41,686 nucleotides of DNA, taken from assembly GCA_016650295.1 (NCBI GenBank), contig JAENWA010000118.1, positions 1 through 41,686 on the forward strand. The letters run 5' to 3'. The notes beneath the pieces were generated by a model that was given only the letters and a program-made list of their open reading frames with translations, searched no databases and was not told the origin of the DNA. Of this stretch, positions 23,982 through 27,759 are shown in pieces. The DNA is from Desulfuromonadales bacterium. GTDB taxonomy: Bacteria > Desulfobacterota > Desulfuromonadia > Geobacterales > Pseudopelobacteraceae. The position numbers were made by a program, and so were the translations under genes. Within the stretch, counting starts at the first letter, position 1. The number at the start of each line of letters is the position of its first letter.

Positions 23982-24096
23982 GCAAAAAGACCCCCTGTAC
24001 TGTCTGTGCAAAAAACGTCAGAGCGCACAAGTCGTACGTTTTCCGGGAACGGTGCACGCAGCAGAAATGTTGAAGGAGGAAGCGGGCACGGAAATA

Positions 24097-24744
24097 TCAG
24101 CGTGTTCTTATCCCGGATTCGTCCATGGCCAGCAGTTCGGTCTGGCGTTCCAGGGCGCCCCGCATCTCCTGACGGACCAGGCGAATCTTCCTCAGATATG
24201 CGTCTGCCTGGGGTCCCTGGCCACAGTACAGTTTTTTGGCCCGCTCCATGTTGCCCTGGGCCATGGTCAGCTTGGAATAGAGTTCGCAGACGGCAGCTTC
24301 GGCACATTTTTCATCATTTTCCATATCGGCGGGCGAATAACCATGGCTCTTGGCACGGTGAGGCATGAGTTGCCAGACACCCAGGGCGCCCTTGCTGGAA
24401 ACTGCGACGGCAGAGAGTTTATGGCCGCCGGTTTCGGCCAAGGCTATCTCGGCCAGGTCGAATGGCACGAAAGGGGTACCGAGGGTTTTGGTGAAGCAGA
24501 GGGCAGCCAGTTGGCGTGAACGGTGGGGTGTGGTGCGGCGTGCAAAGGCGGATTCAATGGCGGCTACCTGCCGTTTGCGCTCACCCATGGAGATACCTTT
24601 CTCCAGGTAGGCCTTGATCTCACGTTCAAGGGGCGTTTCGGTCGATACGGTAGCTGCAGGAGGCAGTTCCGTCTTTTTGACCGGGGCATTTTCGCAGCCA
24701 GCCAGGATCAGCAGGCATGACAGATACAAGAGTTTTTTTCGCAT
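24097..24744 (-). CDS. Lytic transglycosylase-like lipoprotein (SLT domain)
   Basis: This 215-residue protein has a lipoprotein signal with lipobox LILAGC (C17). An SLT fold runs from about 90 to 190: the catalytic glutamate is E104 in ALAETGGHKLSAVAVSSKGALGVWQLMP, which corresponds to the ES-x-F...S-x-x-GA-x-GLMQLMP block of soluble transglycosylases. It should cleave peptidoglycan glycan strands with 1,6-anhydro product from a membrane anchor. The second residue of the ES motif is Thr here, and the final Tyr region is degenerate, so activity is likely but not certain. It is a single gene with a strong promoter 160 bases upstream and a long leader. Confidence 0.82.
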   Translation of the reverse strand: MRKKLLYLSCLLILAGCENAPVKKTELPPAATVSTETPLEREIKAYLEKGISMGERKRQVAAIESAFARRTTPHRSRQLAALCFTKTLGTPFVPFDLAEIALAETGGHKLSAVAVSSKGALGVWQLMPHRAKSHGYSPADMENDEKCAEAAVCELYSKLTMAQGNMERAKKLYCGQGPQADAYLRKIRLVRQEMRGALERQTELLAMDESGIRTR

Positions 24745-24899
24745 AAGTAAGAGTGGGGTCGGTTGTGGGGGCGTTGCCGGACCGGCGCGAGGGCCAGCAG
24801 AAAACTTCAGAAAAATCCGGCTGGGTACTCCTTTCGTGGGAAATGCCCAAAAATGCCAAAGTCCCGGATAACCGAGACTCTGTTTGGGGTGGATACGTT
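24745..24899 (-). promoter_or_regulatory. Long, structured 5' leader of the transglycosylase lipoprotein gene
   Basis: From the predicted transcript start (about 24899) to the ATG is 155 bases. The RNA would hold an 8-bp hairpin AGTCTCGG-TTAT-CCGGGACT (24860-24879) followed by GGGCATTTCC...GGAGTACCC and a GC-rich segment near the ATG. I compared it by eye with c-di-GMP/cGAMP (GEMM), fluoride and guanidine riboswitch consensus sequences and found no match. Confidence 0.35.
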
Positions 24900-24905
24900 G
24901 ACAAC

Positions 24906-24934
24906 TTTCTACAGCAGTTTGTTGGTTATGTCAA
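24906..24934 (-). promoter_or_regulatory. Sigma-70 promoter for the transglycosylase lipoprotein
   Basis: On the minus strand TTGACA (24929-24934), a 17-base spacer and TAGAAA (24906-24911) make a near-consensus promoter. It lies about 160 bases before the coding start, which implies a long leader. Confidence 0.65.
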
Positions 24935-24988
24935 GCGATTGAGGTAAAAAATGTTAATAAACGGACTGTTGTGTGCCGCCGAGTCAGT

Positions 24989-25414
24989 TTACAAGATAGG
25001 TTCACATGGCTGTTTTTCCGCGAGTTTTTGCAGTGTCACGTTGTTCAATATGTCACGTACCTGGTGCTGCACATCGACCCAGACCGGATGCACATTGCAG
25101 GTCGTATCACGGGCGCATTCACCCTTGCTGATGACGCATCGGTTGGGAATAATGGGGCCTTCTACCGCCTCAACCACTTCCAATAACGTGATCCTGTCGG
25201 CTGCCCGACCGAGTATAAAGCCTCCCCCGGTGCCGCGATATGATTTGACCAGACCAATTTTGCTGAATTGCTGAAAAATTTTTGCAAGAAATGTGGGGGG
25301 GACATCCACGGCTGCGGCAATGTCGCTTAACAGGCAGACCTGTTCAGGCGGACGGGAGGCCAGGTAGACAATCCCGCGAATTGCATATTCTCCCTTTCGG
25401 GTAAGCTCCATCAT
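24989..25414 (-). CDS. Rrf2-family transcriptional regulator with cysteine triad
   Basis: This 141-residue protein begins MMELTRKGEYAIRGIVYLA, the Rrf2 winged-helix start, with a recognition helix near TFLAKIFQQFSKIGLVKSYRGTGGGFIL. Three cysteines, C93, C100 and C106, match the Fe-S ligand region of IscR/NsrR/RsrR-type members, with spacing C-x6-C-x5-C. It probably senses iron-sulfur status, redox or nitric oxide. No isc or nitrosative-stress genes are adjacent, so the regulon is unknown. Its ribosome site AGGGG lies within the terminal repeat of the nested element that begins five bases upstream, so expression may be set by that element. Codons and length are normal. Confidence 0.9.
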   Translation of the reverse strand: MMELTRKGEYAIRGIVYLASRPPEQVCLLSDIAAAVDVPPTFLAKIFQQFSKIGLVKSYRGTGGGFILGRAADRITLLEVVEAVEGPIIPNRCVISKGECARDTTCNVHPVWVDVQHQVRDILNNVTLQKLAEKQPCEPIL

Positions 25415-25418
25415 AAAT

Positions 25419-25609
25419 AAACCCCTAGCCCTGATAAAAAGGATAAGTGCGTTAACGAAGTTGTTTTCTGCCAGCCCCGATAAACGGAATAAGTACGATC
25501 ACGAAATCATTTCTGCAAATAAACAGCTGAAATTATTTCTATCGTACTAAAAATGCAGAAAACAAATTCTAACGCACTAAAAAGACATTTTAAGTCTTTT
25601 TAGGGGTTT
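25419..25609. repeat. 191-bp element of nested inverted and direct repeats (REP/MITE-like)
   Basis: The ends are a perfect inverted pair AAACCCCTA (25419-25427) and TAGGGGTTT (25601-25609). Inside are two direct copies of a roughly 43-base unit (25428-25471 and 25474-25516), each starting GCCC(T/C)GATAAA and ending TTCTGC. Two shorter inverted copies follow (25526-25548 and 25555-25578). The outer pair shares AGTGCGTTA and GTTTTCTGC; the inner pair shares AGTACGAT and ATTTC. The whole can fold into one long stem. It carries no gene. It lies between the pfkA stop and the rrf2 start. Confidence 0.8.
25578..25602. terminator. Terminator of pfkA within the nested repeat element
   Basis: TAAAAAGAC, a 7-base loop, then GTCTTTTTA make a perfect 9-bp stem with T-runs on both strands, 59 bases after the pfkA stop. 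Confidence 0.65.
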
Positions 25610-25660
25610 TTCAGAAATTTGTCAATAAAATTGTACGGTCTGCTTTTTTTGCGGCCGGAT

Positions 25661-26749
25661 TCAGCGTCCCATCATAATGCCGAGATCTTCGGCGGTTTTA
25701 ACGATCTCGCCTTCGGGATCGACCAGTTTCAGGTCGCGGGTCGCCTCCTCTATGGTAACCGAGGTAATGGTACGCCCTTTCAGGCAGGCCATGCGACCGA
25801 ATTCTCCGTCGGCAATCATCTGCACCGCCTTGGTGCCAAAACGGCTTCCCAGGCCGCGGTCAAAGGTTGTGGGGGAACCTCCGCGCTGCAGGTGCCCCAG
25901 GACCGTCACCCGGACATCCATATCCAGGCACTGTTCAATCTGTTTAGCTACGTACTGGCCGATGCCGCCCAGACGTTCAATTATTTGGCATTCATCGGCC
26001 GCCTTGGCAACTACCCGGTCGCCTCCGGCCGGAAAGGCGCCCTCTGCTGCAACGACGATGCTGAAACGGCTGCCCCGGGCAGAACGTTCCTTGATCGAGG
26101 AACAGATGCGCGCCAGGTCAAAGGGGATCTCCGGTATCAGGATCACATCCGCTCCCCCGGCAATGCCAGACTCCAGCGCTATCCAACCGGCATAGCGCCC
26201 CATCACCTCCAGAATCATCACCCGGTGATGGCTCTCGGCGGTGGTGTGCAGCTTGTCCAGTGCATCGGTGGCGGTTTCCAGGGCGGTGTTGTAGCCGAAG
26301 GTAAAATCTGTTTCGCACAAGTCATTGTCGATAGTCTTGGGAACTCCCACCACCTGCACGCCTTTTTTTGCCAGCTCCAGGGCGATCTTGAGCGAGCCTT
26401 CACCCCCTACCGCAATCAGCGCATCCAGGCCCAGGGTCTGGATGTTTTCCACAACACGATCGGAAATATCCTTCTGTACAATTTTTCCATCCAGCTCCAC
26501 CGGGTAGTTAAACGGATTGCCGCGGTTGGTGGTGCCCAGGATCGTGCCGCCGCGGGGCAGGATGCCGCGTACGCTTTCCAGGGTCAACGGTATGCATTTT
26601 CTCAGGTCCAGCAGGCCGTCAAAGCCGTCCTCAATGCCGATGACCTGCCAGCCATGCCGGATAATGGCGGACTTCACCACGCCGCGGATGACCGCATTCA
26701 GGCCCGGACAGTCGCCGCCACCGGTCAGGATACCGATATTTTTGCACAT
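25661..26749 (-). CDS. pfkA: 6-phosphofructokinase (mixed-substrate group III type)
   Basis: This 362-residue enzyme phosphorylates fructose 6-phosphate, the committed step of glycolysis. It has the nucleotide loop GILTGGGDCPGLNAV (about 6-20), GGEGS (115-119), PKTIDND (137-143, with the catalytic Asp D141), MGRYAGW and PEIPF. The glycine in GGEGS (E. coli 104 position) suggests ATP use, while the lysine in PKTIDND is the residue seen in PPi enzymes. The Gly/Lys pair is found in group III ATP enzymes, so ATP is more likely than pyrophosphate. It starts 13 bases after tatC with GGAGG at the start, so the two are cotranscribed. Confidence 0.93.
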   Translation of the reverse strand: MCKNIGILTGGGDCPGLNAVIRGVVKSAIIRHGWQVIGIEDGFDGLLDLRKCIPLTLESVRGILPRGGTILGTTNRGNPFNYPVELDGKIVQKDISDRVVENIQTLGLDALIAVGGEGSLKIALELAKKGVQVVGVPKTIDNDLCETDFTFGYNTALETATDALDKLHTTAESHHRVMILEVMGRYAGWIALESGIAGGADVILIPEIPFDLARICSSIKERSARGSRFSIVVAAEGAFPAGGDRVVAKAADECQIIERLGGIGQYVAKQIEQCLDMDVRVTVLGHLQRGGSPTTFDRGLGSRFGTKAVQMIADGEFGRMACLKGRTITSVTIEEATRDLKLVDPEGEIVKTAEDLGIMMGR

Positions 26750-26762
26750 ATGACCTCCTGGT

Positions 26763-27608
26763 TTACGTTACAGGAAGCTCCGGCTCAGCCTCGGGCTTTT
26801 TCTTGCCGAAAATCAGTGCGACCCATACACTGATCTCGTACATCAGGTAGAGCGGCAGCATAATTACGAACATGGTGACCAGATCGGCGTGGAAGGCGGC
26901 GACGACGGAGCTGGCCAGCAGGGCGTACTTGCGCTTGGGGGCTAGCATAGCGTAGCTGACTATGCCGAAACGGGCCAACAGCAGGGTCAGCACCGGCAGT
27001 TCGAAGATCAGGCCGAAGACCAGAATCAGGCGCAGACAGAAGTTGGCATAGGCGCTGATGTTGAACCAGCTTTGCAGACCTTCGGCTTCGTAGGAAAGGG
27101 AAAAGTTGATGATAACCGGCCAGATGACAATCAGGAAAAACATGGCTCCGGCGCAAAAGGTAACCGTGGCTGCGGTAACGAAAGGAACCACCATGCGCCG
27201 TTCTTTACGGGTAAGGCCCGGGGCAATAAAAAGCCAGATCTGGTAGAAGACAATCGGCAGGACCAGAATAAATCCGGCCAGCATTGATATCTTGCACTGG
27301 ATAAAAAACGGCTCAAGCGGTGCGCTGTAATTGAGCGGGTGTTTCTTCTGGGGGGCGTTGATCTCCTGTTCCAGCTTGTAGCGGGTGTACAGGGCCGGTG
27401 ACCATTCCTTGACCTGGCTGTAGGCCTTTTTTTTGATTTCGGTCAGGTAGGTCTTGCCGGTGAGCGGTTTCTCGATGAAATTGAGGATGTCGGTGGAGAA
27501 GTTCCAGGCAACACCCATGCCGATCACGACGGCGATGACAATAACCATCAGACGTTTACGCAACTCGACCAGATGCTCAATAAAAGGGAGTACTTTTTCT
27601 TCGGACAT
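26763..27608 (-). CDS. tatC: Sec-independent protein translocase TatC
   Basis: This 281-residue polytopic inner-membrane protein recognises twin-arginine signal peptides. The cytoplasmic start LPFIEHLVELRKRL, the first helix, the FYQIWLFIAPGLTRKER block and the later FELPVLTLLLARFGIVS match TatC, with six helices expected. The first periplasmic loop (about 40-98) is longer than the roughly 35 residues of E. coli TatC and is charged and lysine-rich. No tatA or tatB gene is in the window; the gene is coupled instead to pfkA. The start at 27608 is consistent with the family. Confidence 0.93.
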   Translation of the reverse strand: MSEEKVLPFIEHLVELRKRLMVIVIAVVIGMGVAWNFSTDILNFIEKPLTGKTYLTEIKKKAYSQVKEWSPALYTRYKLEQEINAPQKKHPLNYSAPLEPFFIQCKISMLAGFILVLPIVFYQIWLFIAPGLTRKERRMVVPFVTAATVTFCAGAMFFLIVIWPVIINFSLSYEAEGLQSWFNISAYANFCLRLILVFGLIFELPVLTLLLARFGIVSYAMLAPKRKYALLASSVVAAFHADLVTMFVIMLPLYLMYEISVWVALIFGKKKPEAEPELPVT

Positions 27609-27759
27609 GCCTCTTACCTATCACAGTGAGTGGTGGTCGTGCAATCGGTTTGATAGTTCGTTTTTGTTGAGATGCAATTATAATGCATATTTATTTTAAT
27701 TCAGCCAACGCATTTATCCTGTTTATCAGGGTTATGAGCTTGTGATAAGATGCCGGCAC

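Follow-up and report, generated by a model that had tools for sequence, protein, structure and literature searches.

What kind of sequence is the 191-bp block (25419-25609) flanked by pfkA and rrf2 in the window (the whole stretch of 41,686 nucleotides that was analysed), and what might it do to rrf2? The most probable answer (probability about 0.8, judged from sequence comparison) is a non-autonomous, dispersed palindromic repeat that was inserted in a conserved palindrome of the rrf2 promoter region, with the promoter and the Shine-Dalgarno sequence left in place. The features on which the analysis draws were the following:

24989..25414, minus strand: rrf2, gene for an Rrf2-superfamily regulator (Pfam PF02082, E 6.9e-36; NCBIfam rrf2_super above cut-off)
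25661-26749, minus strand: pfkA (Pfam and NCBIfam)
25620..25625, minus strand: predicted -35 TTGACA of rrf2 (TTGAC 57-63 nt from the ATG in 22/23 relatives)
25597..25602, minus strand: predicted -10 TAAAAA of rrf2, 17 nt after the -35 (a TA-starting hexamer likewise spaced in 19/23 relatives)
25594..25609, minus strand: 5' arm AAACCCCTAAAAAGAC of the older palindrome, including one 9-bp end (equal arm in repeat-less relatives, e.g. G013, G017 and G022)
25577..25586, minus strand: inner part of the 3' arm, GTCTTTTTAG, now severed from the outer part (sequence and relatives)
25419..25427, minus strand: outer part of the 3' arm, TAGGGGTTT (adjoins TTTTTAG directly in relatives such as G022 and G021)
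25422-25426, minus strand: Shine-Dalgarno-like AGGGG of rrf2, within the outer 3' arm (sequence)
25425..25583, minus strand: inserted repeat, long nested form, in which the A-type outer arms are at 25555-25583 and 25425-25471; ends placed only to within a few bases
25470..25551, minus strand: inner (B-type) unit in the loop of the outer unit (covariance-model match, 80.8 bits, E 1.7e-13)
27663..27736, plus strand: second, degenerate unit just before an NtrY-like kinase gene (weak model match, E 0.009)

The block is separated by four bases (25415-25418) from the rrf2 ATG (25412-25414). Two direct copies and two shorter inverted copies, arranged as outer and inner arms, had been described in the earlier note and were borne out by shuffle-tested pairing: the direct copies (25427-25471, 45 nt, and 25473-25516, 44 nt) were aligned equally well in 0/2000 shuffles, the outer arms (25446-25471 and 25555-25578) paired equally well in 0/2000, and the inner arms in 1/2000. 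The predicted folds were strong for the block as single-stranded DNA (-43.6 kcal/mol, z -9.8) and for the RNA of 25415-25660 (z -5.75). The perfect 9-bp ends that the note had reported are present at 25419-25427 and 25601-25609; they are not the ends of the element, and correspond instead to the outer arms of an older palindrome that flanks it. In sequence terms, two things are fused in the block: this older promoter palindrome and a repeat inserted at approximately 25425-25583.

The older palindrome was recognised by comparing the DNA upstream of rrf2 in 23 relatives of the same family (L091-L113; six loci from the same order were left out). The usual order in these relatives was TTGAC, 17 nt, a TA-hexamer (19/23), mostly an arm like TTTTAGGGG, and the ATG. 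The distance from TTGACA to ATG was 57-63 nt in 22 of the 23, 128 nt in G001 and 211 nt in the window. In five relatives (G009, G013, G017, G021 and G022) AAACCCC..TAAAA...TTAGGGGTTT forms a single palindrome, with five C opposite five G in G021; G003 and G010 are among those in which the left arm is weak or missing. Since the palindrome occurs in relatives without the repeat, AAACCCCTA and TAGGGGTTT of the window were assigned to its outer arms. The predicted -10 is placed in one arm and the Shine-Dalgarno sequence in the other, and the palindrome, which overlaps both and recurs in the family, is a candidate autoregulatory Rrf2 operator, through which rrf2 may control its own expression. The rrf2 product contains three cysteines, C-x6-C-x5-C, a spacing which we take to be IscR-like, and is scored by the NCBIfam IscR model below its cut-off. 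At three loci (L093, L094 and L102) a motif like AAAGAC-N6-GTCCT was seen past the rrf2 stop, towards the neighbouring gene; the regulator may have a second site there.

Second copies, which the earlier note had proposed to look for, were abundant in this and related genomes. A covariance model built from single units, with copies counted at E<=1e-4, detected 56 copies in the genome of the window and at least one copy in 20 of the 57 genomes searched, this genome included; the same-genus genomes G001, G002 and G003 contained 36, 45 and 0 copies respectively. An exact 31-base pattern matched 104 stretches in a species-genome collection. All of the 80 listed were titled as metagenome-assembled genomes, and among the matches listed were Geobacteraceae, Desulfuromonadaceae and Pelobacter, and also Syntrophaceae, Smithella and Desulfobacterales, a range that binning errors may inflate. 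The same exact-pattern search gave 0 matches in viral contigs, so that carriage by viruses was unsupported. Over a consensus set of 137 copies (57 from the genome of the window and 80 from other genomes, picked by score) the unit reads (T)TTAGTAAGTTAGAA-stem-loop-stem-TTCGTTAACGCACTTATCCTGTTTATCAGGGYTAG, an asymmetric palindrome of approximately 83 nt with some 16 extra bases and a small hairpin at one end. The A-type units showed a mean identity of 74%, a value that does not point to recent mobility.

The copies adjoin many unrelated genes: 27 of the 30 best copies of this genome were intergenic by gene calls, and none was inside a called gene at the 72 analysable loci of the 80 named. At these 72 loci the distance was at most 25 nt from the right end to a start in 14/44 cases and to a gene end in 9/25, and from the left end in 18/38 and 15/30 respectively, so that no preference for start codons is claimed. 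Clustering of the genes neighbouring the 80 loci gave one largest cluster (22/80; kinases and regulators by eye), the remaining clusters looking like orthologous neighbourhoods. The degenerate unit at 27663-27736 sits 2 kb from the rrf2 repeat, in the window; the gene downstream of it encodes kinase domains and NtrY_N (Pfam). Three copies (G000:C57:4379, C101:11472 and C68:93244) have near-identical flanks, with GAGGCACT before and a TTATGTCTGTGGGG-like sequence after the unit, and were probably multiplied within a larger repeat. Two further loci (G000:C114:93911 and C96:23622) are right-hand modules without the usual left arm, one of them with an unrelated hairpin instead.

By the aligned sequences, the unit is under structural constraint and its stem covaries. 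Pairing was possible in 96.2% of the cells of 82 aligned matches (two of them reverse-strand rereadings of included copies); shuffles reached 89.8%, and slid controls 52.4% at the most. In these matches 114 cells were changed on both sides, against 24.9 in shuffles, a kind of count that relatedness among copies can raise.

Orthologous sites with and without the unit were found at 11 sites plus rrf2, as is characteristic of MITEs. The joined flanks of 24 copies of this genome were searched in G001-G003, which gave 52 rows; the 22 rows spanning the joined flanks, together with L245, were aligned (one spanning row, G002:C39, was left out), and in these 23 alignments the flanks met without a unit, at 11 of the 24 queried sites. 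The unit model found no unit at these empty junctions, its two weak matches lying elsewhere (E 0.012 and 0.32). Several other rows, split by a gap roughly as long as a unit, look like occupied orthologous sites; G001:C29 is an example, and does contain a unit. Possible short remnants of a right end were noted by eye in G003 at C42:32598 and in G002 at C22:12012, but 137/300 and 45/300 shuffles scored as well, so that they are not established as remnants. The kind of element named in the earlier note, a MITE- or REP-like repeat, is supported by the many copies and the empty orthologous sites; full membership of either class is not.

Two junctions were clean: at rrf2, TTTTAG|GGGG has become TAG-unit-TAG, and at C27:5433, TATCAG of G003 has become CAG-unit-CAG, which suggests a 3-bp YAG target duplication. 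Some empty sites had diverged so far that their junctions were unreadable, and all junctions other than these two were too diverged or without YAG. Across the copies a left CAG was paired with a right CAG in 5/8 cases, against 21/129 (p 0.006, in a test chosen after the cases had been seen); the left TAG was nearly invariant, and many right ends were non-YAG. A strict TTAG target was rejected: the relatives have TTAG at rrf2 and C33:15321, but TTCG, TTAA, CTAT, TTGT or CAG elsewhere. G001 holds a degenerate single unit at the matching point of rrf2, and the outer insertion is therefore probably common to G001 and the window by descent; the inner unit was either lost in G001 or gained in the window.

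The rrf2 copy is of a long form, in which a B-type unit of approximately 83 nt occupies the hairpin loop of an A-type unit. Such nests were found in 4 of the 57 copies of this genome and in 0 of the 80 other-genome copies chosen for high score, those of other genomes having been found by separate analyses. In all, the long form was present at 12 loci in six genomes (G000, G001, G002, G021, G028 and G035), from which three truncated nested copies (L434, L435 and L436) were excluded. In the 12 aligned long forms, 11 of 40 predicted pairs were doubly changed, including pairs of the outer stem. Head-to-tail units at L007, L432, L441, L382, L390 and L401 are joined through a single CTAG or CAG, as would be expected if each unit's right end had been targeted by the unit that follows.

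The strong fold and the place of the block just before the start codon would suit a native rrf2 leader or riboswitch without any insertion, yet the extra length is absent in 22/23 relatives, the copies lie beside many unrelated genes, and an Rfam search of 24000-27000 returned no match up to E 1, so that the block was not placed in any regulatory-RNA family; we consider this explanation extremely improbable. The nested form, for its part, could arise anew each time by insertion of one unit into the loop of another. At C42:27672 the two unit types are swapped, which requires at least one separate nesting; the inner unit of L034 matches a lone unit best; and the common junctions of the head-to-tail pairs agree with repeated nesting as well. 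Against it, a tree of 80-nt sequences groups eight inner units of B type, along with a single lone unit, in one clade, and these inner units are 77% alike mutually versus 68% to lone B-type units. Because the inner units nearly form one clade, the long form probably spreads as a unit, and a fresh origin at every locus, although possible, seems doubtful.

Which enzyme might have moved the repeat was considered for two families. A true REP/REPIN of a RAYT (TnpA-REP), for which a Y1 transposase would act on single-stranded DNA, would be expected to share the abundance, the extragenic position and the imperfect palindrome with conserved pairing that were found here, and it draws further support from the asymmetric end (a small hairpin, then CTAG), from nine Y1 gene matches in the genome of the window, and from 15 identities in a 17-column alignment to the one REP consensus compared, that of E. 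coli (PMC12306157); for two consensus units, 0/5000 and 1/5000 mononucleotide shuffles were as good. The tag itself does not fit, GTAG being absent: in the 137 copies neither GTAG nor GTRG stood beside the palindrome, and the other-strand end was mostly CTAG or CTAA. Nor did the neighbourhoods. The RAYT transposase gene that the earlier note suggested near copies was not found beside them in three adjacency checks: no unit flanked 30 Y1 loci (up to 1.5 kb, some ending at contig ends, in draft genomes and as a subset of many Y1 matches), none flanked five further Y1 loci of this genome, and 598 kb around 80 copies contained one RAYT-like ORF, 4.5 kb from a unit. The Y1 genes of this genome nearest to a unit were at approximately 1.6 kb (C42) and 2.7 kb (C27). 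G035, with 52 copies, gave a single Y1 match, and G029, with 0 copies, encodes a very similar protein. A YAG target duplication is not expected from the single-stranded DNA chemistry of Y1 enzymes, and its occurrence at two sites does not suit them. A MITE-like element moved by a DDE-type transposase with a 3-bp YAG target duplication is favoured by those clean duplications (TAG at rrf2 and CAG at C27:5433) and by the post hoc association of left and right CAG. It is opposed by the near-invariance of the left TAG alongside so many non-YAG right ends, by ends that differ (TTTAGTAAG versus CTAGCCCTGATAA; one with the extra bases and small hairpin) where a MITE has terminal inverted repeats, and by the neighbourhoods of the 80 copies, 2.5 kb deep, in which by eye no transposase-like family recurred. 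The second clean YAG site makes the RAYT explanation less likely and the DDE explanation more likely: the former appears improbable, the latter conceivable but still on the unlikely side. No mobilising enzyme, RAYT or other transposase, was linked to the repeat around the copies scanned.

Returning to the insertion of a dispersed repeat at rrf2, some enzyme would have dispersed the repeat, which would have entered after TTTTTAG of the 3' arm of the palindrome and would now lie between the predicted rrf2 promoter and the start codon. Transcription of rrf2 would start near 25590 and give a leader of approximately 175 nt, in which messages from the rrf2 promoter would have gained about 150 nt as nested hairpins just before the ribosome site. 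The predicted RNA from approximately 25590, including 30 nt of the gene, folds with -63.3 kcal/mol (z -4.9); in the predicted folds only pfkA read-through RNA can pair the Shine-Dalgarno sequence in the 9-bp stem. The leader may have an effect on rrf2, at the level of translation or mRNA stability. The proposal that the element lies in the 5' leader of rrf2 is supported by the comparison. The combination that would have refuted the earlier note, no second copy and a transcript start downstream of the element, is contradicted by the many copies, and a conserved promoter-like sequence is located upstream. The further proposal of a terminator for pfkA found no support: the sole terminator-like match of the scan was on the plus strand, the palindrome predates the insertion, and no terminator-like site was found on the rrf2 strand. 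A bolder view, of a new class of mobile hairpins whose own loop is the preferred landing site, whose units nest to a two-tier long form spreading as a unit, and which at rrf2 splits the promoter palindrome so that the outer 9-bp stem hides the Shine-Dalgarno sequence in pfkA read-through RNA but not in RNA started at the rrf2 promoter, is put forward as speculation that is probably wrong in this full form.

With these results a family of small repeats of a mobile type is added for the Geobacter group and its related bacteria; the nested long form preserves the trace of a repeat that landed in its own loop. At rrf2, where 22 relatives lack the repeat and one has a degenerate unit, there is a clean natural experiment on what a folded insertion in the leader does to an Rrf2-type regulator. 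No description of the family was recognised in the accessible portions of the open literature, and the part of PMC3543383 at hand contained nothing on it. Geobacter bemidjiensis and G. metallireducens have unnamed multicopy palindromic intergenic families, in G. bemidjiensis often with several multicopy sequences in one intergenic region (PMC2996986 and PMC2700814, from partial texts); these resemble the present family in being palindromic, intergenic and of the same bacterial family, a likeness of descriptions and not of alignments, and no pattern record among the 80 listed of 104 matches was titled with either species. The REP/BIME sequences of TnpA-REP (RAYT) systems, as far as excerpts of PMC8266576, PMC2817692 and PMC3733652 describe them, share with the present repeat the many copies, the extragenic position, the imperfect palindrome with a bulged stem and a short match to the E. 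coli REP consensus; unlike them, the present repeat lacks the GTAG tag and a flanked RAYT gene in the loci scanned, has a much longer stem and nests in loops. The closest analogues are ERIC and NEMIS. According to the available part of PMC2229807, ERIC/IRU and NEMIS/Correia elements are shorter than 200 bp, dispersed and mostly intergenic, form long RNA stem-loops and duplicate their target, their movement by a transposase being a hypothesis only; NEMIS occurs in forms of approximately 107 and 155 bp, the longer one with an internal segment. The present repeat is likewise short, dispersed and mostly intergenic, with a long stem-loop and a suggested target duplication, but it has no terminal inverted repeats, bears an extra small hairpin at one end and belongs to another bacterial group, and the internal segment of its long form, unlike that of NEMIS, is a second unit of its own family. 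Small repeats of a mobile type are known elsewhere; the nested form of the present family is unusual.
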